A DNA stretch of 64,000 nt, taken from positions 25,675,001-25,739,000 of the forward strand of contig CP142461.1 of assembly GCA_038049695.1 (NCBI GenBank), given 5' to 3'. The notes below the pieces were generated by a model. That model made no database searches, had not been told where the DNA came from, and was given only the letters and a program-made list of their open reading frames with translations. The translations under genes were made by a program, and so were the position numbers. Shown here piece by piece: positions 6,201-31,018 of the stretch (its first letter is position 1; every line of letters starts with the position of its first letter). The stretch is from Cinnamomum chago (taxonomy: Eukaryota > Streptophyta > Magnoliopsida > Laurales > Lauraceae).

Positions 6201-6460
6201 TTTTCTAGAAGAGGTATTTGGACCGAGAGTCGCAAGAAACACATACTAGAGTTAACAACTTCGTAAAGCTACATTGATTGAGTTTTCCTACAGAAGTTCC
6301 GTACGACGCTTCCGAAGTTCGACTTTTTAGCCTTTTCAGTCCCAAAATTCCCTGAAGTGTTTACCAAACCCAAGATTCACCCGAAAGCATTTTCAAACTG
6401 AAAAGAATCTCGAAATAACCTACAAGGCGCAACTCAGCCCAGAATCATTTCAATTGGATT
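3231..6460 (+). repeat. HOR unit 2 (10-mer, 3230 bp)
   Basis: Order M1-M10, nearly identical to unit 1. It has catccagaagtg in M3, a variant also found in unit 3 but not in unit 1, so it links the left subgroup to the start of the super-repeat region. Confidence 0.96.
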
Positions 6461-8396
6461 TCGGGGCGTAAAACTAGAGTACAACACTTGAAACCTTATT
6501 TTCTATTAAAGCTCGATCCTAGAGTTCTCTAAAAGGAGTATTTGCACCGAGGGTCGCATGAAACACATAGTATAGTCAACAATTTCTCATAGATACATTG
6601 ATTGTGTTTTCGTGCAGAGGTTTCGTACAACGCGCTCGAAGTTCTAGTTTTAGCCGTTTCAATCGTAAAACTTCCTACAGTATTTCCCAAACCCAAGATT
6701 CACCCGAAACCCATTTCAAACCGAAAAGAATCTCGAAATAACCTATAATGCGCAACGCAGCCCAGAATCTCTTCAATTGGATTTCGAGGCGTAAGACTAG
6801 AGTACGACACTTGAAACCCTTTTTTCTTTTAAAACTCGATCGCGGAGTTTTCTAGAAGGAGTATTTGGACTGAGGGTCGCATGAAACACATAGTAGAGTC
6901 AAAAACTTCGTAAAGCTACATTGATTGAGTTTTCATACAGAAGTTCTGTACGATGCTTCCGAAGTTCGACTTTTAGCGTTTTCTAGAGGCAGAACTCCCT
7001 GAAGTGTTTACCAAACCCAAGATTCACCCGAAACCCGTTTCAAACCGAAATGAATCTCGAAATAACCTACAATGCGCAACTCAGACCACAATCCTTTCAA
7101 TAGGATTTCGAGGCGTAAGACTAGAGTACGGCACTTGAAACTTTATTTTCTATTAAAGCTCGATCCTTGAGTTTTCTAGAAGGAGTATTTGCACCGAGGG
7201 TCGTATGAAACATATAGTACAGTGAACAATTTCGCATAGATACATTGATTGTGTTTTCGTGCAGAGGTTTCGTACAACGCGCCCGAAGTTCGGGTTTTAG
7301 CCTTTTCAGACGTAAGACATCCAGAAGTGTTTACCAAACCCAAGATTCACATGAAACCCGTTTCAAACCGAAAAGAATCTCGAAATAACCTACAATGCGC
7401 ATCTCAGCCAGAATCTCTTCAATTGGATTTCGACGCGTAAGACTAGAGTACGACACTTGAAACCCTATTTCCTATTAAAACCTGATCCTAGAGTTTTCTA
7501 GAAGGAGTATTTCCACCGAGGGTCGCATGAAACACATAGTAGAGTCAACAGTTTCGCATATTACATTGATTGTGTTTTCGTGCAAAGGTTTCGTACAACG
7601 CGCCTGAAGTTCGGGTTTTAGCGTTTTCAGACGTAAAACTTCATGAAGTGTTTACCAAACCCAAGATTCACCCGACACCAGTTTCAAACCGAAAAGAATC
7701 TCGAAATAACCTACAGTGCGCATCTCAGCCCAGAATCTCTTCAATTGGATTTCGAGGCGTAAGACTAGAGTACGACACTTGAAACCCTTTTTGCTTTTAA
7801 AAATGGATCCCGTAGTTTTCTAGAAGGAGTATTTGGACCAAGAGTCGCATGAAACACATTGTAGAGTCAACAACTTCGTAAAGCTACATTCTTTGAGTTT
7901 TCATACAAACGTTCCGTATGACGCATCCGAAGTTCGACTTTTAGCCTTTTCAGTCACAGAACTCCCTGAAGTGTTTACAAAACCCAAGATTCACCCGAAA
8001 CCCGTTTTAAAACGAAAAGAATCTCGAAATAACCTACAATGCGCAACTCAGCCCCGAATCCTTTCAATTGGATTTCGAGGCGTAAGACTAGAGTACGACA
8101 CTTGAAACCTTATTTTATATTAAAGCTCAATCCTAGAGTTTTCTAGAAGGAGTTTTTGCACCGAGGGTTGCGTGAAACACTTATTATAGTCAACAATTTC
8201 GCATAGATACATTGATTGTGTTTTCAGGCAAAGGTTTCGTACAACGCGCCCGAAGTTCGGGTTTAGCCTTTTCAGACGTAAAACTTCCTGAAGTGTTTAC
8301 CAAACCCAAGATTCACATGTAACCCGTTTCAAACCGAAAAGAATCTCGAAATAACCTACAATGCGCAACTCAGTCCAGAATCCTTTCAATTGGATT

Positions 8397-8719
8397 TCGA
8401 GGCGTAAGACTAGAGTACGACACTTGAAATCTTATTTCCTATTAACGCCCGATCCTAGAGTTTTCTAGAAGGAGTATTTTTACCGAGGGTCGTATGAAAC
8501 ACATAGTATAGTCAACAATTTCGCTTAGATACAATGATTGTGTTTTCGTGCAGAGGTTTCGTACAACGCGCCCGAAGTTCGGGTTTTAGCCTTTTTACAC
8601 GTAAAACTTCCTGAAGGGTTTACCAAACCCAAGATTCACCCGAAACCCGTTTCAAACCGAAAAGAAGATCGAATTAACCAACAATGCGCATCTCAGCCCA
8701 GAATCTTTTCAATTGGATT
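8397..8719 (+). repeat. Hybrid monomer M7/M9 in unit 3
   Basis: The first 204 bases follow M7 (attaacgcccgatcc, cgcttagatacaatg, cctttttacacg). From 8613 on it follows M9 (cctgaag, then atcgaattaacc and cttttcaattgg). The switch falls in 8601-8612. It has its own changes, gaagggtttacc and gaagatcg, which recur in the matching monomers of units 5 and 7, so the hybrid formed once and was then copied. Confidence 0.92.
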
Positions 8720-9043
8720 TCGAGGCGTAAGACTAGAGTACGACACTTGAAACCCTTTTTTCTTTTAAAACTCGATCGCGGAGTTTTCTAGAAGGAGTAT
8801 TTGGACTGAGGGTCGCATGAAACACATAGTAGAGTCAAAAACTTCGTAAAGCTACATTGATTGAGTTTTCATACAGAAGTTCTGTACAATGCTTCCGAAG
8901 TTCGACTTTTAGCGTTTTCTAGAGGCAGAACTCCCTGAAGTGTTTACCAAACCCAAGATTCACCCGAAACCCGTTTCAAACCGAAATGAATCTCGAAATA
9001 ACCTACAATGCGCAACTCAGTCCAGAATCCTTTCAATTGGATT
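8720..9043 (+). repeat. Hybrid monomer M2/M6 in unit 3
   Basis: It follows M2 through ccgaaatgaatctcg (M2-specific t at 8987), then M6 from cagtccagaatcc (9021). The switch lies in a 33-bp stretch shared by both monomers, 8988-9020. It differs from M2 by ctgtacaatgc, a change kept in all three 12-mer units. Confidence 0.92.
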
Positions 9044-10341
9044 TCGAGGCGTAAGACTAGAGTACGACACTTGAAATCTTATTTCCTATTAACGCCCGAT
9101 CCTAGAGTTTTCTAGAAGGAGTATTTTTACCGAGGGTCGTATGAAACACATAGTATAGTCAACAATTTCGCTTAGATACAATGATTGTGTTTTCGTGCAG
9201 AGGTTTCGTACAACGCGCCCGAAGTTCGGGTTTTAGCCTTTTTACACGTAAAACTTCCTAAAGCGTTTACCAAACCCAAGATTCACCCGAAACCCGTTTC
9301 CAACCGAAAAGAATGTCGAAATAACCTACAGTGCGCATCCCAGCCCAGAATCTCTTCAATTGGATTTCAAGGCGTAAGACTAGACTACGACACTTAAAAC
9401 CCTTTTTTCTTTTAAAACTCGATCCCGGAGTTTTCTAGAAGGAGTATTTGGACCGAGAGTCGCTTGAAACACATAGTTGAGTCAACAACTTCGTAAAGCT
9501 CCATTGATTGAGTTTTCGTACAGAAGTTCCGTACGACTCTTCCGAAGTTCGACCTTTAGCCTTTTTAGTCGCAGAACTCCCTGAAGTGTTTACCAAACCC
9601 AAGATTCACCCGAAACCCGTTTCAAACCGAAAAGAATGCCGAAATAACCTACAATGCGCAACTCAGCCCAGAATCCTTTCAATTGGATTTCGAGGCGTAA
9701 GACTAGAGAACGACACTTGAATCCTTATTTTCTATTAAAGCTCGATCCTGGAGTTTTCTAGATGGAGTATTTGCACCGAGAGTCGAATGAAACACATAGT
9801 ATAGTCAACAATTTAACATAATTACATTGATTGTGTTTTCGTGCAGAGGTTTCGTACAACTCGCTCGAAGTTCGGGTTTTAGCCTTTTCAGACGTAAAAC
9901 TTCCTGAAGTGTTTACCAAACCCAAGATTCACCCGAAACCCGTTTCAAACCGAAAAGAATATCGAATTAACCAACAATGCGCATCTCAGCCCAGAATCTT
10001 TTCAATTGGATTTCGAGACGTAAGACTAGAGTACGACACTTGAAACCCTTTTTTCTTTTAAAACTCGATCCCGGAGTTTTCTAGAAGAGGTATTTGGACC
10101 GAGAGTCGCAAGAAACACATACTAGAGTTAACAACTTCGTAAAGCTACATTGATTGAGTTTTCCTACAGAAGTTCCGTTTCGTACGACGCTTCCGAAGTT
10201 CGACTTTTTAGCCTTTTCAGTCCCAAAATTCCCTGAAGTGTTTACCAAACCCAAGATTCACCCGAAAGCATTTTCAAACTGAAAAGAATCTCGAAATAAC
10301 CTACAAGGCGCAACTCAGCCCAGAATCATTTCAATTGGATT

Positions 10342-13300
10342 TCGGGGCGTAAAACTAGAGTACAACACTTGAAACCTTATTTTCTATTAAAGCTCGATCC
10401 TAGAGTTCTCTAAAAGGAGTATTTGCACCGAGGGTCGCATGAAACACATAGTATAGTCAACAATTTCGCATAGATACATTGATTGTGTTTTCGTGCAGAG
10501 GTTTCGTACAACGCGCTCGAAGTTCTAGTTTTAGCCGTTTCAATCGTAAAACTTCCTACAGTATTTCCCAAACCCAAGATTCACCCGAAACCCATTTCAA
10601 ACCGAAAAGAATCTCGAAATAACCTATAATGCGCAACGCAGCCCAGAATCTCTTCAATTGGATTTCGAGGCGTAAGACTAGAGTACGACACTTGAAACCC
10701 TTTTTTCTTTTAAAACTCGATCGCGGAGTTTTCTAGAAGGAGTATTTGGACTGAGGGTCGCATGAAACACATAGTAGAGTCAAAAACTTCGTAAAGCTAC
10801 ATTGATTGAGTTTTCATACAGAAGTTCTGTACGATGCTTCCGAAGTTCGACTTTTAGCGTTTTCTAGAGGCAGAACTCCCTGAAGTGTTTACCAAACCCA
10901 AGATTCACCCGAAACCCGTTTCAAACCGAAATGAATCTCGAAATAACCTACAATGCGCAACTCAGACCACAATCCTTTCAATAGGATTTCGAGGCGTAAG
11001 ACTAGAGTACGGCACTTGAAACTTTATTTTCTATTAAAGCTCGATCCTTGAGTTTTCTAGAAGGAGTATTTGCACCGAGGGTCGTATGAAACATATAGTA
11101 TAGTGAACAATTTCGCATAGATACATTGATTGTGTTTTCGTGCAGAGGTTTCGTACAACGCGCCCGAAGTTCGGGTTTTAGCCTTTTCAGACGTAAGACA
11201 TCCTGAAGTGTTTACCAAACCCAAGATTCACATGAAACCCGTTTCAAACCGAAAAGAATCTCGAAATAACCTACAATGCGCATCTCAGCCAGAATCTCTT
11301 CAATTGGATTTCGACGCGTAAGACTAGAGTACGACACTTGAAACCCTATTTCCTATTAAAGCCTGATCCTAGAGTTTTCTAGAAGGAGTATTTCCACCGA
11401 GGGTCGCATGAAACACATAGTAGAGTCAACAGTTTCGCATATATACATTGATTGTGTTTTCGTGCAAAGGTTTCGTACAACGCGCCTGAAGTTCGGGTTT
11501 TAGCGTTTTCAGACGTAAAACTTCATGAAGTGTTTACCAAACCCAAGATTCACCCGACACCAGTTTCAAACCGAAAAGAGTCTCGAAATAACCTACAGTG
11601 CGCATCTCAGCCCAGAATCTCTTCAATTGGATTTCGAGGCGTAAGACTAGAGTACGACACTTGAAACCCTTTTTGCTTTTAAAAATGGATCCCGTAGTTT
11701 TCTAGAAGGAGTATTTGGACCAAGAGTCGCATGAAACACATTGTAGAGTCAACAACTTCGTAAAGCTACATTCTTTGAGTTTTCATACAAACGTTCCGTA
11801 TGACGCATCCGAAGTTCGACTTTTAGCCTTTTCAGTCACAGAACTCCCTGAAGTGTTTACAAAACCCAAGATTCACCCGAAACCCGTTTTAAAACGAAAA
11901 GAATCTCGAAATAACCTACAATGCGCAACTCAGCCCCGAATCCTTTCAATTGGATTTCGAGGCGTAAGACTAGAGTACGACACTTGAAACCTTATTTTAT
12001 ATTAAAGCTCAATCCTAGAGTTTTCTAGAAGGAGTTTTTGCACCGAGGGTTGCGTGAAACACTTATTATAGTCAACAATTTCGCATAGATACATTGATTG
12101 TGTTTTCAGGCAAAGGTTTCGTACAACGCGCCCGAAGTTCGGGTTTAGCCTTTTCAGACGTAAAACTTCCTGAAGTGTTTACCAAACCCAAGATTCACAT
12201 GTAACCCGTTTCAAACCGAAAAGAATCTCGAAATAACCTACAATGCGCAACTCAGTCCAGAATCCTTTCAATTGGATTTCGAGGCGTAAGACTAGAGTAC
12301 GACACTTGAAATCTTATTTCCTATTAACGCCCGATCCTAGAGTTTTCTAGAAGGAGTATTTTTACCGAGGGTCGTATGAAACACATAGTATAGTCAACAA
12401 TTTCGCTTAGATACAATGATTGTGTTTTCGTGCAGAGGTTTCGTACAACGCGCCCGAAGTTCGGGTTTTAGCCTTTTTACACGTAAAACTTCCTAAAGCG
12501 TTTACCAAACCCAAGATTCACCCGAAACCCGTTTCCAACCGAAAAGAATGTCGAAATAACCTACAGTGCGCATCCCAGCCCAGAATCTCTTCAATTGGAT
12601 TTCAAGGCGTAAGACTAGACTACGACACTTAAAACCCTTTTTTCTTTTAAAACTCGATCCCGGAGTTTTCTAGAAGGAGTATTTGGACCGAGAGTCGCTT
12701 GAAACACATAGTTGAGTCAACAACTTCGTAAAGCTCCATTGATTGAGTTTTCGTACAGAAGTTCCGTACGACTCTTCCGAAGTTCGACCTTTAGCCTTTT
12801 TAGTCGCAGAACTCCCTGAAGTGTTTACCAAACCCAAGATTCACCCGAAACCCGTTTCAAACCGAAAAGAATGCCGAAATAACCTACAATGCGCAACTCA
12901 GCCCAGAATCCTTTCAATTGGATTTCGAGGCGTAAGACTAGAGAACGACACTTGAATCCTTATTTTCTATTAAAGCTCGATCTTGGAGTTTTCTAGATGG
13001 AGTATTTGCACCGAGAGTCGAATGAAACACATAGTATAGTCAACAATTTAACATAATTACATTGATTGTGTTTTCGTGCAGAGGTTTCGTACAACTCGCT
13101 GAAGTTCGGGTTTTAGCCTTTTCAGACGTAAAACTGCCTGAAGTGTTTACCAAACCCAAGATTCACCCGAAACCCGTTTCAAACCGAAAAGAATATCGAA
13201 TTAACCAACAATGCGCATCTCAGCCCAGAATCTTTTCAATTGGATTTCGAGACGTAAGACTAGAGTACGACACTTGAAACCCTTTTTTCTTTTAAAACTC

Positions 13301-13570
13301 GATCCCGGAGTTTTCTAGAAGAGGTATTTGGACCGAGAGTCGCAAGAAACACATACTAGAGTTAACAACTTCGTAAAGCTACATTGATTGAGTTTTCCTA
13401 CAGAAGTTCCGTACGACGCTTCCGAAGTTCGACTTTTTAGCCTTTTCAGTCCCAAAATTCCCTGAAGTGTTTACCAAACCCAAGATTCACCCGAAAGCAT
13501 TTTCAAACTGAAAAGAATCTCGAAATAACCTACAAGGCGCAACTCAGCCCAGAATCATTTCAATTGGATT
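10342..13570 (+). repeat. HOR unit 4 (10-mer, 3229 bp)
   Basis: Order M1-M10. M9 has the one-base deletion actcgctgaag together with gatcttggag and aactgcctgaag, a combination found only in units 4, 6 and 8. M4 is the long form. It has a private gaaaagagtctcg in M4. Confidence 0.96.
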
Positions 13571-15506
13571 TCGGGGCGTAAAACTAGAGTACAACACTTG
13601 AAACCTTATTTTCTATTAAAGCTCGATCCTAGAGTTCTCTAAAAGGAGTATTTGCACCGAGGGTCGCATGAAACACATAGTATAGTCAACAATTTCGCAT
13701 AGATACATTGATTGTGTTTTCGTGCAGAGGTTTCGTACAACGCGCTCGAAGTTCTAGTTTTAGCCGTTTCAATCGTAAAACTTCCTACAGTATTTCCCAA
13801 ACCCAAGATTCACCCGAAACCCATTTCAAACCGAAAAGAATCTCGAAATAACCTATAATGCGCAACGCAGCCCAGAATCTCTTCAATTGGATTTCGAGGC
13901 GTAAGACTAGAGTACGACACTTGAAACCCTTTTTTCTTTTAAAACTCGATCGCGGAGTTTTCTAGAAGGAGTATTTGGACTGAGGGTTGCATGAAACACA
14001 TAGTAGAGTCAAAAACTTCGTAAAGCTACATTGATTGAGTTTTCATACAGAAGTTCTGTACGATGCTTCCGAAGTTCGACTTTTAGCGTTTTCTAGAGGC
14101 AGAACTCCCTGAAGTGTTTACCAAACCCAAGATTCACCCGAAACCCGTTTCAAACCGAAATGAATCTCGAAATAACCTACAATGCGCAACTCAGACCACA
14201 ATCCTTTCAATAGGATTTCGAGGCGTAAGACTAGAGTACGGCACTTGAAACTTTATTTTCTATTAAAGCTCGATCCTTGAGTTTTCTAGAAGGAGTATTT
14301 GCACCGAGGGTCGTATGAAACATATAGTATAGTGAACAATTTCGCATAGATACATTGATTGTGTTTTCGTGCAGAGGTTTCGTACAACGCGCCCGAAGTT
14401 CGGGTTTTAGCCTTTTCAGACGTAAGACATCCTGAAGTGTTTACCAAACCCAAGATTCACATGAAACCCGTTTCAAACCGAAAAGAATCTCGAAATAACC
14501 TACAATGCGCATCTCAGCCAGAATCTCTTCAATTGGATTTCGACGCGTAAGACTAGAGTACGACACTTGAAACCCTATTTCCTATTAAAGCCTGATCCTA
14601 GAGTTTTCTAGAAGGAGTATTTCCACCGAGGGTCGCATGAAACACATAGTAGAGTCAACAGTTTCGCATATTACATTGATTGTGTTTTCGTGCAAAGGTT
14701 TCGTACAACGCGCCTGAAGTTCGGGTTTTAGCGTTTTCAGACGTAAAACTTCATGAAGTGTTTACCAAACCCAAGATTCACCCGACACCAGTTTCAAACC
14801 GAAAAGAATCTCGAAATAACCTACAGTGCGCATCTCAGCCCAGAATCTCTTCAATTGGATTTCGAGGCGTAAGACTAGAGTACGACACTTGAAACCCTTT
14901 TTGCTTTTAAAAATGGATCCCGTAGTTTTCTAGAAGGAGTATTTGGACCAAGAGTCGCATGAAACACATTGTAGAGTCAACAACTTCGTAAAGCTACATT
15001 CTTTGAGTTTTCATACAAACGTTCCGTATGACGCATCCGAAGTTCGACTTTTAGCCTTTTCAGTCGCAGAACTCCCTGAAGTGTTTACAAAACCCAAGAT
15101 TCACCCGAAACCCGTTTTAAAACGAAAAGAATCTCGAAATAACCTACAATGCGCAACTCAGCCCCGAATCCTTTCAATTGGATTTCGAGGCGTAAGACTA
15201 GAGTACGACACTTGAAACCTTATTTTATATTAAAGCTCAATCCTAGAGTTTTCTAGAAGGAGTTTTTGCACCGAGGGTTGCGTGAAACACTTATTATAGT
15301 CAACAATTTCGCATAGATACATTGATTGTGTTTTCAGGCAAAGGTTTCGTACAACGCGCCCGAAGTTCGGGTTTAGCCTTTTCAGACGTAAAACTTCCTG
15401 AAGTGTTTACCAAACCCAAGATTCACATGTAACCCGTTTCAAACCGAAAAGAATCTCGAAATAACCTACAATGCGCAACTCAGTCCAGAATCCTTTCAAT
15501 TGGATT

Positions 15507-15829
15507 TCGAGGCGTAAGACTAGAGTACGACACTTGAAATCTTATTTCCTATTAACGCCCGATCCTAGAGTTTTCTAGAAGGAGTATTTTTACCGAGGGT
15601 CGTATGAAACACATAGTATAGTCAACAATTTCGCTTAGATACAATGATTGTGTTTTCGTGCAGAGGTTTCGTACAACGCGCCCGAAGTTCGGGTTTTAGC
15701 CTTTTTACACGTAAAACTTCCTGAAGGGTTTACCAAACCCAAGATTCACCCGAAACCCGTTTCAAACCGAAAAGAAGATCGAATTAACCAACAATGCGCA
15801 TCTCAGCCCAGAATCTTTTCAATTGGATT
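15507..15829 (+). repeat. Hybrid monomer M7/M9 in unit 5
   Basis: Same chimera as at 8397-8719, including gaagggtttacc and gaagatcg, 7110 bp downstream of it. Confidence 0.92.
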
Positions 15830-16153
15830 TCGAGGCGTAAGACTAGAGTACGACACTTGAAACCCTTTTTTCTTTTAAAACTCGATCGCGGAGTTTTCTA
15901 GAAGGAGTATTTGGACTGAGGGTCGCATGAAACACATAGTAGAGTCAAAAACTTCGTAAAGCTACATTGATTGAGTTTTCATACAGAAGTTCTGTACAAT
16001 GCTTCCGAAGTTCGACTTTTAGCGTTTTCTAGAGGCAGAACTCCCTGAAGTGTTTACCAAACCCAAGATTCACCCGAAACCCGTTTCAAACCGAAATGAA
16101 TCTCGAAATAACCTACAATGCGCAACTCAGTCCAGAATCCTTTCAATTGGATT
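15830..16153 (+). repeat. Hybrid monomer M2/M6 in unit 5
   Basis: Same chimera as at 8720-9043, with ctgtacaatgc and the M6-type ending cagtccagaatcc. It keeps the C form gagggtcgcatg, whereas the true M2 of this same unit has the T form. Confidence 0.92.
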
Positions 16154-17451
16154 TCGAGGCGTAAGACTAGAGTACGACACTTGAAATCTTATTTCCTATT
16201 AACGCCCGATCCTAGAGTTTTCTAGAAGGAGTATTTTTACCGAGGGTCGTATGAAACACATAGTATAGTCAACAATTTCGCTTAGATACAATGATTGTGT
16301 TTTCGTGCAGAGGTTTCGTACAACGCGCCCGAAGTTCGGGTTTTAGCCTTTTTACACGTAAAACTTCCTAAAGCGTTTACCAAACCCAAGATTCACCCGA
16401 AACCCGTTTCCAACCGAAAAGAATGTCGAAATAACCTACAGTGCGCATCCCAGCCCAGAATCTCTTCAATTGGATTTCAAGGCGTAAGACTAGACTACGA
16501 CACTTAAAACCCTTTTTTCTTTTAAAACTCGATCCCGGAGTTTTCTAGAAGGAGTATTTGGACCGAGAGTCGCTTGAAACACATAGTTGAGTCAACAACT
16601 TCGTAAAGCTCCATTGATTGAGTTTTCGTACAGAAGTTCCGTACGACTCTTCCGAAGTTCGACCTTTAGCCTTTTTAGTCGCAGAACTCCCTGAAGTGTT
16701 TACCAAACCCAAGATTCACCCGAAACCCGTTTCAAACCGAAAAGAATGCCGAAATAACCTACAATGCGCAACTCAGCCCAGAATCCTTTCAATTGGATTT
16801 CGAGGCGTAAGACTAGAGAACGACACTTGAATCCTTATTTTCTATTAAAGCTCGATCCTGGAGTTTTCTAGATGGAGTATTTGCACCGAGAGTCGAATGA
16901 AACACATAGTATAGTCAACAATTTAACATAATTACATTGATTGTGTTTTCGTGCAGAGGTTTCGTACAACTCGCTCGAAGTTCGGGTTTTAGCCTTTTCA
17001 GACGTAAAACTTCCTGAAGTGTTTACCAAACCCAAGATTCACCCGAAACCCGTTTCAAACCGAAAAGAATATCGAATTAACCAACAATGCGCATCTCAGC
17101 CCAGAATCTTTTCAATTGGATTTCGAGACGTAAGACTAGAGTACGACACTTGAAACCCTTTTTTCTTTTAAAACTCGATCCCGGAGTTTTCTAGAAGAGG
17201 TATTTGGACCGAGAGTCGCAAGAAACACATACTAGAGTTAACAACTTCGTAAAGCTACATTGATTGAGTTTTCCTACAGAAGTTCCGTTTCGTACGACGC
17301 TTCCGAAGTTCGACTTTTTAGCCTTTTCAGTCCCAAAATTCCCTGAAGTGTTTACCAAACCCAAGATTCACCCGAAAGCATTTTCAAACTGAAAAGAATC
17401 TCGAAATAACCTACAAGGCGCAACTCAGCCCAGAATCATTTCAATTGGATT

Positions 17452-20400
17452 TCGGGGCGTAAAACTAGAGTACAACACTTGAAACCTTATTTTCTATTAA
17501 AGCTCGATCCTAGAGTTCTCTAAAAGGAGTATTTGCACCGAGGGTCGCATGAAACACATAGTATAGTCAACAATTTCGCATAGATACATTGATTGTGTTT
17601 TCGTGCAGAGGTTTCGTACAACGCGCTCGAAGTTCTAGTTTTAGCCGTTTCAATCGTAAAACTTCCTACAGTATTTCCCAAACCCAAGATTCACCCGAAA
17701 CCCATTTCAAACCGAAAAGAATCTCGAAATAACCTATAATGCGCAACGCAGCCCAGAATCTCTTCAATTGGATTTCGAGGCGTAAGACTAGAGTACGACA
17801 CTTGAAACCCTTTTTTCTTTTAAAACTCGATCGCGGAGTTTTCTAGAAGGAGTATTTGGACTGAGGGTTGCATGAAACACATAGTAGAGTCAAAAACTTC
17901 GTAAAGCTACATTGATTGAGTTTTCATACAGAAGTTCTGTACGATGCTTCCGAAGTTCGACTTTTAGCGTTTTCTAGAGGCAGAACTCCCTGAAGTGTTT
18001 ACCAAACCCAAGATTCACCCGAAACCCGTTTCAAACCGAAATGAATCTCGAAATAACCTACAATGCGCAACTCAGACCACAATCCTTTCAATAGGATTTC
18101 GAGGCGTAAGACTAGAGTACGGCACTTGAAACTTTATTTTCTATTAAAGCTCGATCCTTGAGTTTTCTAGAAGGAGTATTTGCACCGAGGGTCGTATGAA
18201 ACATATAGTATAGTGAACAATTTCGCATAGATACATTGATTGTGTTTTCGTGCAGAGGTTTCGTACAACGCGCCCGAAGTTCGGGTTTTAGCCTTTTCAG
18301 ACGTAAGACATCCTGAAGTGTTTACCAAACCCAAGATTCACATGAAACCCGTTTCAAACCGAAAAGAATCTCGAAATAACCTACAATGCGCATCTCAGCC
18401 AGAATCTCTTCAATTGGATTTCGACGCGTAAGACTAGAGTACGACACTTGAAACCCTATTTCCTATTAAAGCCTGATCCTAGAGTTTTCTAGAAGGAGTA
18501 TTTCCACCGAGGGTCGCATGAAACACATAGTAGAGTCAACAGTTTCGCATATTACATTGATTGTGTTTTCGTGCAAAGGTTTCGTACAACGCGCCTGAAG
18601 TTCGGGTTTTAGCGTTTTCAGACGTAAAACTTCATGAAGTGTTTACCAAACCCAAGATTCACCCGACACCAGTTTCAAACCGAAAAGAATCTCGAAATAA
18701 CCTACAGTGCGCATCTCAGCCCAGAATCTCTTCAATTGGATTTCGAGGCGTAAGACTAGAGTACGACACTTGAAACCCTTTTTGCTTTTAAAAATGGATC
18801 CCGTAGTTTTCTAGAAGGAGTATTTGGACCAAGAGTCGCATGAAACACATTGTAGAGTCAACAACTTCGTAAAGCTACATTCTTTGAGTTTTCATACAAA
18901 CGTTCCGTATGACGCATCCGAAGTTCGACTTTTAGCCTTTTCAGTCACAGAACTCCCTGAAGTGTTTACAAAACCCAAGATTCACCCGAAACCCGTTTTA
19001 AAACGAAAAGAATCTCGAAATAACCTACAATGCGCAACTCAGCCCCGAATCCTTTCAATTGGATTTCGAGGCGTAAGACTAGAGTACGACACTTGAAACC
19101 TTATTTTATATTAAAGCTCAATCCTAGAGTTTTCTAGAAGGAGTTTTTGCACCGAGGGTTGCGTGAAACACTTATTATAGTCAACAATTTCGCATAGATA
19201 CATTGATTGTGTTTTCAGGCAAAGGTTTCGTACAACGCGCCCGAAGTTCGGGTTTAGCCTTTTCAGACGTAAAACTTCCTGAAGTGTTTACCAAACCCAA
19301 GATTCACATGTAACCCGTTTCAAACCGAAAAGAATCTCGAAATAACCTACAATGCGCAACTCAGTCCAGAATCCTTTCAATTGGATTTCGAGGCGTAAGA
19401 CTAGAGTACGACACTTGAAATCTTATTTCCTATTAACGCCCGATCCTAGAGTTTTCTAGAAGGAGTATTTTTACCGAGGGTCGTATGAAACACATAGTAT
19501 AGTCAACAATTTCGCTTAGATACAATGATTGTGTTTTCGTGCAGAGGTTTCGTACAACGCGCCCGAAGTTCGGGTTTTAGCCTTTTTACACGTAAAACTT
19601 CCTAAAGCGTTTACCAAACCCAAGATTCACCCGAAACCCGTTTCCAACCGAAAAGAATGTCGAAATAACCTACAGTGCGCATCCCAGCCCAGAATCTCTT
19701 CAATTGGATTTCAAGGCGTAAGACTAGACTACGACACTTAAAACCCTTTTTTCTTTTAAAACTCGATCCCGGAGTTTTCTAGAAGGAGTATTTGGACCGA
19801 GAGTCGCTTGAAACACATAGTTGAGTCAACAACTTCGTAAAGCTCCATTGATTGAGTTTTCGTACAGAAGTTCCGTACGACTCTTCCGAAGTTCGACCTT
19901 TAGCCTTTTTAGTCGCAGAACTCCCTGAAGTGTTTACCAAACCCAAGATTCACCCGAAACCCGTTTCAAACCGAAAAGAATGCCGAAATAACCTACAATG
20001 CGCAACTCAGCCCAGAATCCTTTCAATTGGATTTCGAGGCGTAAGACTAGAGAACGACACTTGAATCCTTATTTTCTATTAAAGCTCGATCTTGGAGTTT
20101 TCTAGATGGAGTATTTGCACCGAGAGTCGAATGAAACACATAGTATAGTCAACAATTTAACATAATTACATTGATTGTGTTTTCGTGCAGAGGTTTCGTA
20201 CAACTCGCTGAAGTTCGGGTTTTAGCCTTTTCAGACGTAAAACTGCCTGAAGTGTTTACCAAACCCAAGATTCACCCGAAACCCGTTTCAAACCGAAAAG
20301 AATATCGAATTAACCAACAATGCGCATCTCAGCCCAGAATCTTTTCAATTGGATTTCGAGACGTAAGACTAGAGTACGACACTTGAAACCCTTTTTTCTT

Positions 20401-20679
20401 TTAAAACTCGATCCCGGAGTTTTCTAGAAGAGGTATTTGGACCGAGAGTCGCAAGAAACACATACTAGAGTTAACAACTTCGTAAAGCTACATTGATTGA
20501 GTTTTCCTACAGAAGTTCCGTACGACGCTTCCGAAGTTCGACTTTTTAGCCTTTTCAGTCCCAAAATTCCCTGAAGTGTTTACCAAACCCAAGATTCACC
20601 CGAAAGCATTTTCAAACTGAAAAGAATCTCGAAATAACCTACAAGGCGCAACTCAGCCCAGAATCATTTCAATTGGATT
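17452..20679 (+). repeat. HOR unit 6 (10-mer, 3228 bp)
   Basis: Matches unit 4, including the tagged M9, but has the short M4 and the T form of M2. The short M4 makes it one base shorter than unit 4. Confidence 0.96.
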
Positions 20680-22615
20680 TCGGGGCGTAAAACTAGAGTA
20701 CAACACTTGAAACCTTATTTTCTATTAAAGCTCGATCCTAGAGTTCTCTAAAAGGAGTATTTGCACCGAGGGTCGCATGAAACACATAGTATAGTCAACA
20801 ATTTCGCATAGATACATTGATTGTGTTTTCGTGCAGAGGTTTCGTACAACGCGCTCGAAGTTCTAGTTTTAGCCGTTTCAATCGTAAAACTTCCTACAGT
20901 ATTTCCCAAACCCAAGATTCACCCGAAACCCATTTCAAACCGAAAAGAATCTCGAAATAACCTATAATGCGCAACGCAGCCCAGAATCTCTTCAATTGGA
21001 TTTCGAGGCGTAAGACTAGAGTACGACACTTGAAACCCTTTTTTCTTTTAAAACTCGATCGCGGAGTTTTCTAGAAGGAGTATTTGGACTGAGGGTTGCA
21101 TGAAACACATAGTAGAGTCAAAAACTTCGTAAAGCTACATTGATTGAGTTTTCATACAGAAGTTCTGTACGATGCTTCCGAAGTTCGACTTTTAGCGTTT
21201 TCTAGAGGCAGAACTCCCTGAAGTGTTTACCAAACCCAAGATTCACCCGAAACCCGTTTCAAACCGAAATGAATCTCGAAATAACCTACAATGCGCAACT
21301 CAGACCACAATCCTTTCAATAGGATTTCGAGGCGTAAGACTAGAGTACGGCACTTGAAACTTTATTTTCTATTAAAGCTCGATCCTTGAGTTTTCTAGAA
21401 GGAGTATTTGCACCGAGGGTCGTATGAAACATATAGTATAGTGAACAATTTCGCATAGATACATTGATTGTGTTTTCGTGCAGAGGTTTCGTACAACGCG
21501 CCCGAAGTTCGGGTTTTAGCCTTTTCAGACGTAAGACATCCTGAAGTGTTTACCAAACCCAAGATTCACATGAAACCCGTTTCAAACCGAAAAGAATCTC
21601 GAAATAACCTACAATGCGCATCTCAGCCAGAATCTCTTCAATTGGATTTCGACGCGTAAGACTAGAGTACGACACTTGAAACCCTATTTCCTATTAAAGC
21701 CTGATCCTAGAGTTTTCTAGAAGGAGTATTTCCACCGAGGGTCGCATGAAACACATAGTAGAGTCAACAGTTTCGCATATTACATTGATTGTGTTTTCGT
21801 GCAAAGGTTTCGTACAACGCGCCTGAAGTTCGGGTTTTAGCGTTTTCAGACGTAAAACTTCATGAAGTGTTTACCAAACCCAAGATTCACCCGACACCAG
21901 TTTCAAACCGAAAAGAATCTCGAAATAACCTACAGTGCGCATCTCAGCCCAGAATCTCTTCAATTGGATTTCGAGGCGTAAGACTAGAGTACGACACTTG
22001 AAACCCTTTTTGCTTTTAAAAATGGATCCCGTAGTTTTCTAGAAGGAGTATTTGGACCAAGAGTCGCATGAAACACATTGTAGAGTCAACAACTTCGTAA
22101 AGCTACATTCTTTGAGTTTTCATACAAACGTTCCGTATGACGCATCCGAAGTTCGACTTTTAGCCTTTTCAGTCGCAGAACTCCCTGAAGTGTTTACAAA
22201 ACCCAAGATTCACCCGAAACCCGTTTTAAAACGAAAAGAATCTCGAAATAACCTACAATGCGCAACTCAGCCCCGAATCCTTTCAATTGGATTTCGAGGC
22301 GTAAGACTAGAGTACGACACTTGAAACCTTATTTTATATTAAAGCTCAATCCTAGAGTTTTCTAGAAGGAGTTTTTGCACCGAGGGTTGCGTGAAACACT
22401 TATTATAGTCAACAATTTCGCATAGATACATTGATTGTGTTTTCAGGCAAAGGTTTCGTACAACGCGCCCGAAGTTCGGGTTTAGCCTTTTCAGACGTAA
22501 AACTTCCTGAAGTGTTTACCAAACCCAAGATTCACATGTAACCCGTTTCAAACCGAAAAGAATCTCGAAATAACCTACAATACGCAACTCAGTCCAGAAT
22601 CCTTTCAATTGGATT

Positions 22616-22938
22616 TCGAGGCGTAAGACTAGAGTACGACACTTGAAATCTTATTTCCTATTAACGCCCGATCCTAGAGTTTTCTAGAAGGAGTATTTTT
22701 ACCGAGGGTCGTATGAAACACATAGTATAGTCAACAATTTCGCTTAGATACAATGATTGTGTTTTCGTGCAGAGGTTTCGTACAACGCGCCCGAAGTTCG
22801 GGTTTTAGCCTTTTTACACGTAAAACTTCCTGAAGGGTTTACCAAACCCAAGATTCACCCGAAACCCGTTTCAAACCGAAAAGAAGATCGAATTAACCAA
22901 CAATGCGCATCTCAGCCCAGAATCTTTTCAATTGGATT
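22616..22938 (+). repeat. Hybrid monomer M7/M9 in unit 7
   Basis: Third copy of the chimera, 14219 bp downstream of the first, with the same breakpoint and the same private bases. Confidence 0.92.
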
Positions 22939-23262
22939 TCGAGGCGTAAGACTAGAGTACGACACTTGAAACCCTTTTTTCTTTTAAAACTCGATCGCGG
23001 AGTTTTCTAGAAGGAGTATTTGGACTGAGGGTCGCATGAAACACATAGTAGAGTCAAAAACTTCGTAAAGCTACATTGATTGAGTTTTCATACAGAAGTT
23101 CTGTACAATGCTTCCGAAGTTCGACTTTTAGCGTTTTCTAGAGGCAGAACTCCCTGAAGTGTTTACCAAACCCAAGATTCACCCGAAACCCGTTTCAAAC
23201 CGAAATGAATCTCGAAATAACCTACAATGCGCAACTCAGTCCAGAATCCTTTCAATTGGATT
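22939..23262 (+). repeat. Hybrid monomer M2/M6 in unit 7
   Basis: Third copy of the M2/M6 chimera, with ctgtacaatgc and cagtccagaatcc. Confidence 0.92.
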
Positions 23263-24560
23263 TCGAGGCGTAAGACTAGAGTACGACACTTGAAATCTTA
23301 TTTCCTATTAACGCCCGATCCTAGAGTTTTCTAGAAGGAGTATTTTTACCGAGGGTCGTATGAAACACATAGTATAGTCAACAATTTCGCTTAGATACAA
23401 TGATTGTGTTTTCGTGCAGAGGTTTCGTACAACGCGCCCGAAGTTCGGGTTTTAGCCTTTTTACACGTAAAACTTCCTAAAGCGTTTACCAAACCCAAGA
23501 TTCACCCGAAACCCGTTTCCAACCGAAAAGAATGTCGAAATAACCTACAGTGCGCATCCCAGCCCAGAATCTCTTCAATTGGATTTCAAGGCGTAAGACT
23601 AGACTACGACACTTAAAACCCTTTTTTCTTTTAAAACTCGATCCCGGAGTTTTCTAGAAGGAGTATTTGGACCGAGAGTCGCTTGAAACACATAGTTGAG
23701 TCAACAACTTCGTAAAGCTCCATTGATTGAGTTTTCGTACAGAAGTTCCGTACGACTCTTCCGAAGTTCGACCTTTAGCCTTTTTAGTCGCAGAACTCCC
23801 TGAAGTGTTTACCAAACCCAAGATTCACCCGAAACCCGTTTCAAACCGAAAAGAATGCCGAAATAACCTACAATGCGCAACTCAGCCCAGAATCCTTTCA
23901 ATTGGATTTCGAGGCGTAAGACTAGAGAACGACACTTGAATCCTTATTTTCTATTAAAGCTCGATCCTGGAGTTTTCTAGATGGAGTATTTGCACCGAGA
24001 GTCGAATGAAACACATAGTATAGTCAACAATTTAACATAATTACATTGATTGTCTTTTCGTGCAGAGGTTTCGTACAACTCGCTCGAAGTTCGGGTTTTA
24101 GCCTTTTCAGACGTAAAACTTCCTGAAGTGTTTACCAAACCCAAGATTCACCCGAAACCCGTTTCAAACCGAAAAGAATATCGAATTAACCAACAATGCG
24201 CATCTCAGCCCAGAATCTTTTCAATTGGATTTCGAGACGTAAGACTAGAGTACGACACTTGAAACCCTTTTTTCTTTTAAAACTCGATCCCGGAGTTTTC
24301 TAGAAGAGGTATTTGGACCGAGAGTCGCAAGAAACACATACTAGAGTTAACAACTTCGTAAAGCTACATTGATTGAGTTTTCCTACAGAAGTTCCGTTTC
24401 GTACGACGCTTCCGAAGTTCGACTTTTTAGCCTTTTCAGTCCCAAAATTCCCTGAAGTGTTTACCAAACCCAAGATTCACCCGAAAGCATTTTCAAACTG
24501 AAAAGAATCTCGAAATAACCTACAAGGCGCAACTCAGCCCAGAATCATTTCAATTGGATT

Positions 24561-27500
24561 TCGGGGCGTAAAACTAGAGTACAACACTTGAAACCTTATT
24601 TTCTATTAAAGCTCGATCCTAGAGTTCTCTAAAAGGAGTATTTGCACCGAGGGTCGCATGAAACACATAGTATAGTCAACAATTTCGCATAGATACATTG
24701 ATTGTGTTTTCGTGCAGAGGTTTCGTACAACGCGCTCGAAGTTCTAGTTTTAGCCGTTTCAATCGTAAAACTTCCTACAGTATTTCCCAAACCCAAGATT
24801 CACCCGAAACCCATTTCAAACCGAAAAGAATCTCGAAATAACCTATAATGCGCAACGCAGCCCAGAATCTCTTCAATTGGATTTCGAGGCGTAAGACTAG
24901 AGTACGACACTTGAAACCCTTTTTTCTTTTAAAACTCGATCGCGGAGTTTTCTAGAAGGAGTATTTGGACTGAGGGTCGCATGAAACACATAGTAGAGTC
25001 AAAAACTTCGTAAAGCTACATTGATTGAGTTTTCATACAGAAGTTCTGTACGATGCTTCCGAAGTTCGACTTTTAGCGTTTTCTAGAGGCAGAACTCCCT
25101 GAAGTGTTTACCAAACCCAAGATTCACCCGAAACCCGTTTCAAACCGAAATGAATCTCGAAATAACCTACAATGCGCAACTCAGACCACAATCCTTTCAA
25201 TAGGATTTCGAGGCGTAAGACTAGAGTACGGCACTTGAAACTTTATTTTCTATTAAAGCTCGATCCTTGAGTTTTCTAGAAGGAGTATTTGCACCGAGGG
25301 TCGTATGAAACATATAGTATAGTGAACAATTTCGCATAGATACATTGATTGTGTTTTCGTGCAGAGGTTTCGTACAACGCGCCCGAAGTTCGGGTTTTAG
25401 CCTTTTCAGACGTAAGACATCCTGAAGTGTTTACCAAACCCAAGATTCACATGAAACCCGTTTCAAACCGAAAAGAATCTCGAAATAACCTACAATGCGC
25501 ATCTCAGCCAGAATCTCTTCAATTGGATTTCGACGCGTAAGACTAGAGTACGACACTTGAAACCCTATTTCCTATTAAAACCTGATCCTAGAGTTTTCTA
25601 GAAGGAGTATTTCCACCGAGGGTCGCATGAAACACATAGTAGAGTCAACAGTTTCGCATATATACATTGATTGTGTTTTCGTGCAAAGGTTTCGTACAAC
25701 GCGCCTGAAGTTCGGGTTTTAGCGTTTTCAGACGTAAAACTTCATGAAGTGTTTACCAAACCCAAGATTCACCCGACACCAGTTTCAAACCGAAAAGAAT
25801 CTCGAAATAACCTACAGTGCGCATCTCAGCCCAGAATCTCTTCAATTGGATTTCGAGGCGTAAGACTAGAGTACGACACTTGAAACCCTTTTTGCTTTTA
25901 AAAATGGATCCCGTAGTTTTCTAGAAGGAGTATTTGGACCAAGAGTCGCATGAAACACATTGTAGAGTCAACAACTTCGTAAAGCTACATTCTTTGAGTT
26001 TTCATACAAACGTTCCGTATGACGCATCCGAAGTTCGACTTTTAGCCTTTTCAGTCGCAGAACTCCCTGAAGTGTTTACAAAACCCAAGATTCACCCGAA
26101 ACCCGTTTTAAAACGAAAAGAATCTCGAAATAACCTACAATGCGCAACTCAGCCCCGAATCCTTTCAATTGGATTTCGAGGCGTAAGACTAGAGTACGAC
26201 ACTTGAAACCTTATTTTATATTAAAGCTCAATCCTAGAGTTTTCTAGAAGGAGTTTTTGCACCGAGGGTTGCGTGAAACACTTATTATAGTCAACAATTT
26301 CGCATAGATACATTGATTGTGTTTTCAGGCAAAGGTTTCGTACAACGCGCCCGAAGTTCGGGTTTAGCCTTTTCAGACGTAAAACTTCCTGAAGTGTTTA
26401 CCAAACCCAAGATTCACATGTAACCCGTTTCAAACCGAAAAGAATCTCGAAATAACCTACAATGCGCAACTCAGTCCAGAATCCTTTCAATTGGATTTCG
26501 AGGCGTAAGACTAGAGTACGACACTTGAAATCTTATTTCCTATTAACGCCCGATCCTAGAGTTTTCTAGAAGGAGTATTTTTACCGAGGGTCGTATGAAA
26601 CACATAGTATAGTCAACAATTTCGCTTAGATACAATGATTGTGTTTTCGTGCAGAGGTTTCGTACAACGCGCCCGAAGTTCGGGTTTTAGCCTTTTTACA
26701 CGTAAAACTTCCTAAAGCGTTTACCAAACCCAAGATTCACCCGAAACCCGTTTCCAACCGAAAAGAATGTCGAAATAACCTACAGTGCGCATCCCAGCCC
26801 AGAATCTCTTCAATTGGATTTCAAGGCGTAAGACTAGACTACGACACTTAAAACCCTTTTTTCTTTTAAAACTCGATCCCGGAGTTTTCTAGAAGGAGTA
26901 TTTGGACCGAGAGTCGCTTGAAACACATAGTTGAGTCAACAACTTCGTAAAGCTCCATTGATTGAGTTTTCGTACAGAAGTTCCGTACGACTCTTCCGAA
27001 GTTCGACCTTTAGCCTTTTTAGTCGCAGAACTCCCTGAAGTGTTTACCAAACCCAAGATTCACCCGAAACCCGTTTCAAACCGAAATGAATGCCGAAATA
27101 ACCTACAATGCGCAACTCAGCCCAGAATCCTTTCAATTGGATTTCGAGGCGTAAGACTAGAGAACGACACTTGAATCCTTATTTTCTATTAAAGCTCGAT
27201 CTTGGAGTTTTCTAGATGGAGTATTTGCACCGAGAGTCGAATGAAACACATAGTATAGTCAACAATTTAACATAATTACATTGATTGTGTTTTCGTGCAG
27301 AGGTTTCGTACAACTCGCTGAAGTTCGGGTTTTAGCCTTTTCAGACGTAAAACTGCCTGAAGTGTTTACCAAACCCAAGATTCACCCGAAACCCGTTTCA
27401 AACCGAAAAGAATATCGAATTAACCAACAATGCGCATCTCAGCCCAGAATCTTTTCAATTGGATTTCGAGACGTAAGACTAGAGTACGACACTTGAAACC

Positions 27501-27789
27501 CTTTTTTCTTTTAAAACTCGATCCCGGAGTTTTCTAGAAGAGGTATTTGGACCGAGAGTCGCAAGAAACACATACTAGAGTTAACAACTTCGTAAAGCTA
27601 CATTGATTGAGTTTTCCTACAGAAGTTCCGTACGACGCTTCCGAAGTTCGACTTTTTAGCCTTTTCAGTCCCAAAATTCCCTGAAGTGTTTACCAAACCC
27701 AAGATTCACCCGAAAGCATTTTCAAACTGAAAAGAATCTCGAAATAACCTACAAGGCGCAACTCAGCCCAGAATCATTTCAATTGGATT
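24561..27789 (+). repeat. HOR unit 8 (10-mer, 3229 bp)
   Basis: Third 10-mer with the tagged M9 (actcgctgaag). It has the long M4 and the C form of M2, as in unit 4. A private change is ccgaaatgaatgccg in M8. It closes the third copy of the super-repeat. Confidence 0.96.
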
Positions 27790-30700
27790 TCGGGGCGTAA
27801 AACTAGAGTACAACACTTGAAACCTTATTTTCTATTAAAGCTCGATCCTAGAGTTCTCTAAAAGGAGTATTTGCACCGAGGGTCGCATGAAACACATAGT
27901 ATAGTCAACAATTTCGCATAGATACATTGATTGTGTTTTCGTGCAGAGGTTTCGTACAACGCGCTCGAAGTTCTAGTTTTAGCCGTTTCAATCGTAAAAC
28001 TTCCTACAGTATTTCCCAAACCCAAGATTCACCCGAAACCCATTTCAAACCGAAAAGAATCTCGAAATAACCTATAATGCGCAACGCAGCCCAGAATCTC
28101 TTCAATTGGATTTCGAGGCGTAAGACTAGAGTACGACACTTGAAACCCTTTTTTCTTTTAAAACTCGATCGCGGAGTTTTCTAGAAGGAGTATTTGGACT
28201 GAGGGTTGCATGAAACACATAGTAGAGTCAAAAACTTCGTAAAGCTACATTGATTGAGTTTTCATACAGAAGTTCTGTACGATGCTTCCGAAGTTCGACT
28301 TTTAGCGTTTTCTAGAGGCAGAACTCCCTGAAGTGTTTACCAAACCCAAGATTCACCCGAAACCCGTTTCAAACCGAAATGAATCTCGAAATAACCTACA
28401 ATGCGCAACTCAGACCACAATCCTTTCAATAGGATTTCGAGGCGTAAGACTAGAGTACGGCACTTGAAACTTTATTTTCTATTAAAGCTCGATCCTTGAG
28501 TTTTCTAGAAGGAGTATTTGCACCGAGGGTCGTATGAAACATATAGTATAGTGAACAATTTCGCATAGATACATTGATTGTGTTTTCGTGCAGAGGTTTC
28601 GTACAACGCGCCCGAAGTTCGGGTTTTAGCCTTTTCAGACGTAAGACATCCTGAAGTGTTTACCAAACCCAAGATTCACATGAAACCCGTTTCAAACCGA
28701 AAAGAATCTCGAAATAACCTACAATGCGCATCTCAGCCAGAATCTCTTCAATTGGATTTCGACGCGTAAGACTAGAGTACGACACTTGAAACCCTATTTC
28801 CTATTAAAGCCTGATCCTAGAGTTTTCTAGAAGGAGTATTTCCACCGAGGGTCGCATGAAACACATAGTAGAGTCAACAGTTTCGCATATTACATTGATT
28901 GTGTTTTCGTGCAAAGGTTTCGTACAACGCGCCTGAAGTTCGGGTTTTAGCGTTTTCAGACGTAAAACTTCATGAAGTGTTTACCAAACCCAAGATTCAC
29001 CCGACACCAGTTTCAAACCGAAAAGAATCTCGAAATAACCTACAGTGCGCATCTCAGCCCAGAATCTCTTCAATTGGATTTCGAGGCGTAAGACTAGAGT
29101 ACGACACTTGAAACCCTTTTTGCTTTTAAAAATGGATCCCGTAGTTTTCTAGAAGGAGTATTTGGACCAAGAGTCGCATGAAACACATTGTAGAGTCAAC
29201 AACTTCGTAAAGCTACATTCTTTGAGTTTTCATACAAACGTTCCGTATGACGCATCCGAAGTTCGACTTTTAGCCTTTTCAGTCACAGAACTCCCTGAAG
29301 TGTTTACAAAACCCAAGATTCACCCGAAACCCGTTTTAAAACGAAAAGAATCTCGAAATAACCTACAATGCGCAACTCAGCCCCGAATCCTTTCAATTGG
29401 ATTTCGAGGCGTAAGACTAGAGTACGACACTTGAAACCTTATTTTATATTAAAGCTCAATCCTAGAGTTTTCTAGAAGGAGTTTTTGCACCGAGGGTTGC
29501 GTGAAACACTTATTATAGTCAACAATTTCGCATAGATACATTGATTGTGTTTTCAGGCAAAGGTTTCGTACAACGCGCCCGAAGTTCGGGTTTAGCCTTT
29601 TCAGACGTAAAACTTCCTGAAGTGTTTACCAAACCCAAGATTCACATGTAACCCGTTTCAAACCGAAAAGAATCTCGAAATAACCTACAATGCGCAACTC
29701 AGTCCAGAATCCTTTCAATTGGATTTCGAGGCGTAAGACTAGAGTACGACACTTGAAATCTTATTTCCTATTAACGCCCGATCCTAGAGTTTTCTAGAAG
29801 GAGTATTTTTACCGAGGGTCGTATGAAACACATAGTATAGTCAACAATTTCGCTTAGATACAATGATTGTGTTTTCGTGCAGAGGTTTCGTACAACGCGC
29901 CCGAAGTTCGGGTTTTAGCCTTTTTACACGTAAAACGTCCTAAAGCGTTTACCAAACCCAAGATTCACCCGAAACCCGTTTCCAACCGAAAAGAATGTCG
30001 AAATAACCTACAGTGCGCATCCCAGCCCAGAATCTCTTCAATTGGATTTCAAGGCGTAAGACTAGACTACGACACTTAAAACCCTTTTTTCTTTTAAAAC
30101 TCGATCCCGGAGTTTTCTAGAAGGAGTATTTGGACCGAGAGTCGCTTGAAACACATAGTTGAGTCAACAACTTCGTAAAGCTCCATTGATTGAGTTTTCG
30201 TACAGAAGTTCCGTACGACTCTTCCGAAGTTCGACCTTTAGCCTTTTTAGTCGCAGAACTCCCTGAAGTGTTTACCAAACCCAAGATTCACCCGAAACCC
30301 GTTTCAAACCAAAAAGAATGCCGAAATAACCTACAATGCGCAACTCAGCCCAGAATCCTTTCAATTGGATTTCGAGGCGTAAGACTAGAGAACGACACTT
30401 GAATCCTTATTTTCTATTAAAGCTCGATCCTGGAGTTTTCTAGATGGAGTATTTGCACCGAGAGTCGAATGAAACACATAGTATAGTCAACAATTTAACA
30501 TAAATACATTGATTGTGTTTTCGTGCAGAGGTTTCGTACAACTCGCTCGAAGTTCGGGTTTTAGCCTTTTCAGACGTAAAACTTCCTGAAGTGTTTACCA
30601 AACCCAAGATTCACCCGAAACCCGTTTCAAACCGAAAAGAATATCGAATTAACCAACAATGCGCATCTCAGCCCAGAATCTTTTCAATTGGATTTCGAGA

Positions 30701-31018
30701 CGTAAGACTAGAGTACGACACTTGAAACCCTTTTTTCTTTTAAAACTCGATCCCGGAGTTTTCTAGAAGAGGTATTTGGACCGAGAGTCGCAAGAAACAC
30801 ATACTAGAGTTAACAACTTCGTAAAGCTACATTGATTGAGTTTTCCTACAGAAGTTCCGTACGACGCTTCCGAAGTTCGACTTTTTAGCCTTTTCAGTCC
30901 CAAAATTCCCTGAAGTGTTTACCAAACCCAAGATTCACCCGAAAGCATTTTCAAACTGAAAAGAATCTCGAAATAACCTACAAGGCGCAACTCAGCCCAG
31001 AATCATTTCAATTGGATT
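27790..31018 (+). repeat. HOR unit 9 (10-mer, 3229 bp)
   Basis: Plain 10-mer with untagged M9 and the short M4. Private changes: aaaacgtcctaaag in M7, aaaccaaaaagaatgcc in M8 and cataaatacattg in M9. Confidence 0.96.

Follow-up and report, generated by a model that had tools for sequence, protein, structure and literature searches.

A 22-monomer block repeated three times in a satellite array of Cinnamomum chago, with a probable origin by duplication of a 7.1-kb segment

A satellite array of Cinnamomum chago contains a block of 22 monomers, a 12-monomer unit followed by a 10-monomer unit, that occurs three times in succession at positions 6466-27794 of the window, the 64,000-nucleotide stretch analyzed here (contig CP142461.1, hereafter C11, positions 25675001-25739000; bare coordinates are window positions). 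It is a local superHOR, that is, a second-order arrangement or higher-order repeat (HOR) of HORs, and it amounts to three copies within a stretch made up mostly of 3.2-kb units. From the sequence we consider it probable that a patch from a distant sub-array produced the 12-mer, that tandem duplication then brought the 22-monomer segment to three copies, and that short exchanges followed. The 7.1-kb duplication is thus regarded here as the likely account and not as a demonstrated one.

The assembly comprises 1.06 Gb in 14 contigs, and the window lies near the middle of the 56.6-Mb contig C11. Window positions 1-61168 are occupied by a satellite of about 323 bp, arranged head-to-tail on the plus strand. 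Its monomers were typed by clustering over 264 kb (C11:25535001-25799000), with lengths of 310-345 bp accepted. The 695 monomers accepted, among them the hybrids, all measure 319-329 bp, so the monomer phase is maintained. At a distance of 2% they form ten large clusters, each with 63-72 members, plus small ones, and the ten types are lettered A to J in array order. Type consensuses are 82-92% identical in pairwise comparison and split into two classes, with ACDFGI on one side and BEHJ on the other. In its canonical form ABCDEFGHIJ, the repeat unit is a 10-monomer HOR of 3230 bp, and 47 complete decamers hold 470 of the 695 monomers. The order of types is fixed and copies within a type are far more alike than copies of different types, as in HORs of the Willard type.

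Monomer spacing and typing confirmed the original prediction of a 12-mer plus 10-mer block present three times. The limits given there (6461-27789) differ from ours merely by a 5-bp choice of phase, and the predicted spacing of 7109-7110 bp agrees with the measured 7110, 7109 and 7110 bp. The monomer counts run 12, 10, 12, 10, 12, 10, and the 12-mer has the composition ABCDEF(G*)(B/F)GHIJ. The units and their flanks are as follows, with variable sites named by monomer type and alignment column (e.g. I054).

3236-6465, plus strand: left flank, canonical 10-mer; C108C, C218A and D046A in common with the first 12-mer
6466-10346, plus strand: block 1, 12-mer ABCDEF(G*)(B/F)GHIJ, 3881 bp
10347-13575, plus strand: block 1, 10-mer with I tags, 3229 bp
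13576-17456, plus strand: block 2, 12-mer, 3881 bp
17457-20684, plus strand: block 2, 10-mer with I tags, 3228 bp
20685-24565, plus strand: block 3, 12-mer, 3881 bp
24566-27794, plus strand: block 3, 10-mer with I tags, 3229 bp
27795-31023, plus strand: right flank, canonical 10-mer; identical from A to D060 to the second and third 12-mers and to the 10-mer at 17457

In pairwise comparison the three 12-mers differ at 6, 8 and 2 columns and the three 10-mers at 3, 4 and 5, while the pair of extra monomers shows no difference between one 12-mer and another. Outside this insert, 19 columns vary among the six units. Eight of them alternate strictly (I054, the one-base deletion I177, I215 and the five columns J159-163), and 11 do not (A122, B090, C108, C218, D046, D128, D272, E207, F292, H269 and I141). 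The one-base deletion with linked substitutions that had been proposed as a mark of the 10-mers is borne out by I054, I177 and I215, and the stretch carrying the I054 tag has exact matches at three places genome-wide, namely the three 10-mers. The proposed 12-mer tag, a 5-bp insertion, had to be narrowed. It is a duplication of TTCCG, and its exact 35-base pattern occurs at nine places, all within 70 kb (C11:25660272-25730109). Three of these, in the 12-mers, carry T, and the six elsewhere carry C; the insertion itself was therefore dropped as a tag, and only its C-to-T form is specific to the 12-mers. The tagged stretches are the following.

12930-13251, 20039-20360 and 27149-27470, plus strand: I monomer of 322 bp with linked I054T, I177 deletion and I215G
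10164-10198, 17274-17308 and 24383-24417, plus strand: J stretch with the 5-bp insertion in the C-to-T form seen solely in 12-mers

Diagnostic k-mers gave the periodicity that the original prediction had called for. Among the 783 31-mers present exactly three times in the 264 kb, the commonest pair of spacings is (7110,7109) with 128 31-mers, followed by (6460,4197) with 95 and (7109,7110) with 90. The 31-mers with all copies 7105-7115 bp apart number 218, all of them accounted for by the pairs (7110,7109) and (7109,7110), and lie entirely within 8583-27385.

To compare registers, difference events were counted for the last four of the six units, with runs of columns counted once and the two-monomer insert excluded. 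In the G-J halves, the events against the unit 7.1 kb earlier number 0, 0, 1 and 1 (total 2), compared with 4, 4, 5 and 6 (total 19) against the adjacent unit. In the A-F halves the corresponding counts are 6, 3, 1 and 4 (total 14) and 4, 1, 2 and 4 (total 11). A closer match at the 7.1-kb offset (2 vs 19 in G-J, 14 vs 11 in A-F) is thus a property of the G-J halves and does not extend over whole units, as the A-F halves have no such advantage. From A to D060 there are no differences among the units at 13576 and 20685 and the right flank at 27795. Over the same columns the unit at 6466 differs by 2 from that at 3236, by 1 from that at -11310 and by 5 from that at 27795, and it holds the upstream alleles C108C, C218A and D046A. 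This pattern, resting on about five sites, is a modest junction signature for a duplication, and a junction within D explains part of the contrast between the A-F and G-J halves. With the G-J counts, it makes duplication of a 7.1-kb segment the simplest account of the second-order arrangement. The further claim that a 7.1-kb unit, and not the 3.2-kb one, was amplified is too strong for three copies and for A-F halves that match no better at this offset.

The two extra monomers of the 12-mer are chimeras, located as follows.

8402-9048, plus strand: G* then B/F, copy 1; 641 of 647 bases identical to an upstream BCDEFG* array
15512-16158, plus strand: copy 2, identical to copy 1
22621-23267, plus strand: copy 3, identical to copy 1

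Hybrids in the 12-mer had been predicted and are present; their distant match lay outside the sequence on which that prediction rested. In the 264 kb, 14 monomers are labelled hybrid at the chosen threshold. The three G* are among these, whereas the three B/F are not and become visible only by path analysis. The G* monomer has an I-like tail with two private bases. An exact search of the assembly with 53 bases of G*-specific sequence finds 11 places, and a 31-base search finds the same 11: three in the 12-mers and eight on C11:25484035-25499886, mostly 1938 bp (six monomers) apart. A separate six-monomer HOR of 1938 bp, BCDEFG*, lies there to the left of the 10-mer stretch (C11:25482203-25495740), about 190-200 kb upstream of the first 12-mer, and its G* is the same chimera. 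A simple local crossover as the source of the G/I hybrid was dropped because the two private bases were found in this distant array. The 647-bp insert aligns to the distant array with 6 mismatches and no gap; once the 12-mer regions are masked, no other part of the 264 kb matches it with fewer than 32-33 mismatches. Three of the 6 mismatches fall at the end of B, within its final 28 columns, where F sequence stands in the 12-mer, and the others are at G45, B169, and B190 or B82.

If G45 marks its limit, the copied part starts after G45 and no later than G218 and ends at B269-302, which gives roughly 0.4-0.6 kb. Copying would have begun in register, and the return to the local array would have been out of register, at a 33-bp tract common to B and F. 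The eight distant G* monomers are followed by B in five cases and by H in two, one successor being untyped. The two near the right end of the stretch continue with H, I and J, and it is this G-H-I-J context, seen solely in the distant stretch among the monomers typed, which cover part of the array, that suggests copying from the distant to the local array. The distant copies also differ from the 12-mer in ways that count against them as an exact source: the distant G* have 45A, which the 12-mer lacks; five of the seven distant F monomers compared have 243T, likewise absent from the 12-mer; and all five B monomers compared that follow a distant G* are changed at B82 or B190, unlike the 12-mer, and lack its B169A. 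None of the copies read is therefore an exact donor.

We posit the following course of events. A DNA end in a canonical 10-mer would have used the BCDEFG* HOR as the template for a patch of about 0.4-0.6 kb, either about 190-200 kb away or at the same place on a sister or homologue. It would then have rejoined the local array at F, out of register, through the identical 33-bp tract, and the two chimeric monomers so added would have made the 12-mer. The 12-mer and the next 10-mer (22 monomers, 7.11 kb) may then have undergone tandem duplication, reaching three copies through unequal sister exchange or out-of-register break-induced replication, with a junction in monomer D that the alleles would place between about D046 and D128. 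Short exchanges among neighboring units would finally have reshuffled the A-E alleles. Whether the birth of a new HOR has been caught here, with a distant sub-array patch founding the 12-mer and the changed segment being amplified next, is a more tentative matter, which we put forward as possible and somewhat doubtful.

Several observations weigh against this history, and most of them fit, instead, a spread of the tags one by one through conversion, in which the G-J half of the 12-mer and the tagged I were copied separately into alternate units and no 7.1-kb segment was ever duplicated whole. The A-F halves lack 7.1-kb phasing, which calls for short exchanges at a later time or for a history that was different in part. 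The 10-mer at 17457 shows no difference from the unit at 27795 from A to D060, a segment it thus shares with its 12-mer neighbors and which limits the junction signature, and it holds the flank alleles B090T and the D128 deletion. The 24566 unit holds D046A and E207G, the latter also found in the second and third 12-mers and absent from the first. Together these two units require at least two or three extra exchanges to be assumed. Conversion-like mosaics are frequent: with each of the five linked insertion columns counted singly, the four-gamete test fails for 156 of 528 site pairs; exchange is thus common and blurs the histories of single units. Strict alternation was dropped as a proof of block amplification and is weak evidence by itself, since three and three labels in random order over six slots alternate in 2 of 20 arrangements. 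Conversion would, however, need four exactly complementary transfers, two of them carrying the 647-bp insert, and it must treat as chance both the A-D060 identity of the units at 13576, 20685 and 27795 and the presence of upstream alleles in the unit at 6466. We regard it as unlikely, though as the most serious competitor of the tandem duplication.

Two further explanations concern the way in which three copies could appear at once. Near-identical tandem DNA is hard to assemble, and the assembler might have repeated one 7.1-kb stretch. A looped assembly is expected to yield identical copies, but the blocks have differing sets of A-E alleles and carry changes unique among 27 units compared (A122T in the unit at 6466, D272G at 10347, F292A and I141C at 20685, H269T at 24566), which makes an artefact improbable. 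A 7.1-kb extrachromosomal circle, copied and re-inserted as a trimer, would produce a tandem trimer with one period in a single step. It too predicts copies identical at birth, whereas the first block has upstream A-D alleles and the later 12-mers have flank alleles, as expected for duplication in place, and E207G is present in the second and third 12-mers but not in the first. As no observation calls for a circle, we consider it the least probable of all. Tandem duplication in place, followed by exchanges, remains our preferred reading.

The lengths of identical tracts at changes of monomer type were compared with those of 10000 random sets, 32 of the 42 listed changes being distinct. When only monomers with one change are considered (20 distinct changes), tracts average 25.7 bp where 18.5 bp is expected, and 76 of 10000 random sets were as long. 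With degraded monomers included, all 32 distinct changes give 22.4 against 19.0 bp (729 of 10000), which is not significant. An earlier set of 16 hand-picked junctions (33.3 vs 22.6 bp, 0 of 5000) is unreliable, as one of them, from F to C at column 70, is absent from the list of changes. There is moderate support that junctions tend to lie in identical tracts, which fits homology-based exchange in monomer register. The tract and length data do not tell unequal crossover and break-induced replication apart.

The arrangement fits a superHOR and the 12-mer fits a cascading HOR, both already known from human centromeres. A superHOR, as used in CentromereArchitect, is a string of HOR symbols that recurs in a HOR decomposition with a minimum count of 2, run lengths being ignored (PMC8336445). 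By this definition, the string (12-mer,10-mer) x3 at 6466-27794 is one. The decomposition of human cenX contains 'dada', with d a 22-mer and a a 12-mer, and hybrid monomers are described there (PMC8336445); long and standard units likewise alternate in our array, with hybrid monomers. Unlike the human case, the monomers belong to a plant satellite and measure 323 bp, only three copies are present, and another sub-array offers a probable source for the hybrid pair. Human alpha satellite also has cascading HORs, defined by the recurrence of a monomer type inside a single HOR copy (PMC11050224). This holds for ABCDEF(G*)(B/F)GHIJ, where G occurs twice and B twice in part, and not for the canonical 10-mer, but here, unlike in human, such a unit is rare among Willard-type 10-mers and is not the main unit of the stretch. 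Models of HOR growth invoke unequal exchange and break-induced replication (PMC8997354; PMC11034957), and our array resembles their cases in that multi-monomer segments were probably duplicated out of register, although the sequence cannot separate the two. Like the centromeric Palv156 of Populus (PMC12046899), the satellite is a plant repeat lying mostly on one strand, with HORs and a similarity that declines with distance, but one regular decamer of ten well-separated types dominates the stretch studied here. Within a partial coverage of the literature, no description of this 323-bp satellite or of nested HORs in plants was found.

The array as a whole is of megabase scale and putatively centromeric. 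In 1-kb samples of C11 between 23 and 28 Mb, the satellite was present in 11 of 20 (25.3, 25.4, 25.5, 25.85, 25.9, 26.0, 26.1, 26.2, 26.4, 26.7 and 27.0 Mb) and absent from nine (23.0, 24.0, 24.5, 24.8, 25.0, 25.1, 25.2, 25.45 and 28.0 Mb). When at most 2 mismatches are allowed, a 40-base core occurs in the whole assembly at 4547 places in forward and 2 in reverse orientation, with C11, C8, C7 and C2 among the matches listed. The position of the satellite samples (25.3-27.05 Mb of a 56.6-Mb contig) and the places on other contigs are circumstantial evidence that suggests a centromere. Homogenization is local: in a comparison of 27 units, the mean number of differences is 9.3 at the next listed unit and about 14-15 at eight or more, in list steps that are not exact distances, as shorter units and a retrotransposon are omitted.

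The order of the two monomer classes along the decamer in window 1-61168 is 1211211212, according to which the decamer may have been built on an older two- or three-monomer unit. Another second-order repeat, at C11:25538036-25552238, is an 18-mer ABCDEFGH(I/A)BCDEFGHIJ of 5809 bp, complete once, with a second copy breaking off at I and a third partial. At C11:25569311-25575768 the order ABCDEF BCDEF BCDEF GHIJ contains a five-monomer segment three times in one unit, and two shortened five-monomer units, ABC(D/I)J and ABCIJ, occur within the 10-mer array (34258-35873; C11:25673385-25675005). Among the matches listed, nine core matches at C11:27014298-27037546 have a regular spacing of 2906 bp (nine monomers), so that a 9-mer HOR probably lies in the right part of the array; among the same matches, C8:31366333-31589512 has many spacings of 967 and 969 bp, from which the satellite there is probably a three-monomer HOR. 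Toward the end of the window the array is interrupted by a young long terminal repeat (LTR) retrotransposon of about 9.85 kb, which extends from 61169 past the window end to C11:25746015. It is inserted where an I monomer is expected, with 5-bp target-site copies TGAAA and LTRs of 2000 bp that have 2 mismatches (99.9%). The LTR is followed by TGGTATCAGAGCC, which we take to be a common plant primer-binding site.

How HORs originate and change in length is debated, with unequal exchange, gene conversion and break-induced replication under discussion. In the present array, 21 kb of sequence with few later changes show a 7.1-kb step, a probable donor at a distance, a likely junction and subsequent exchanges, so that each step can be checked in other haplotypes or relatives. 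The array thereby gives a partly readable record of how a satellite array is rebuilt. If our account is true, new HOR types would originate by long-range out-of-register patching and be propagated by local duplication.

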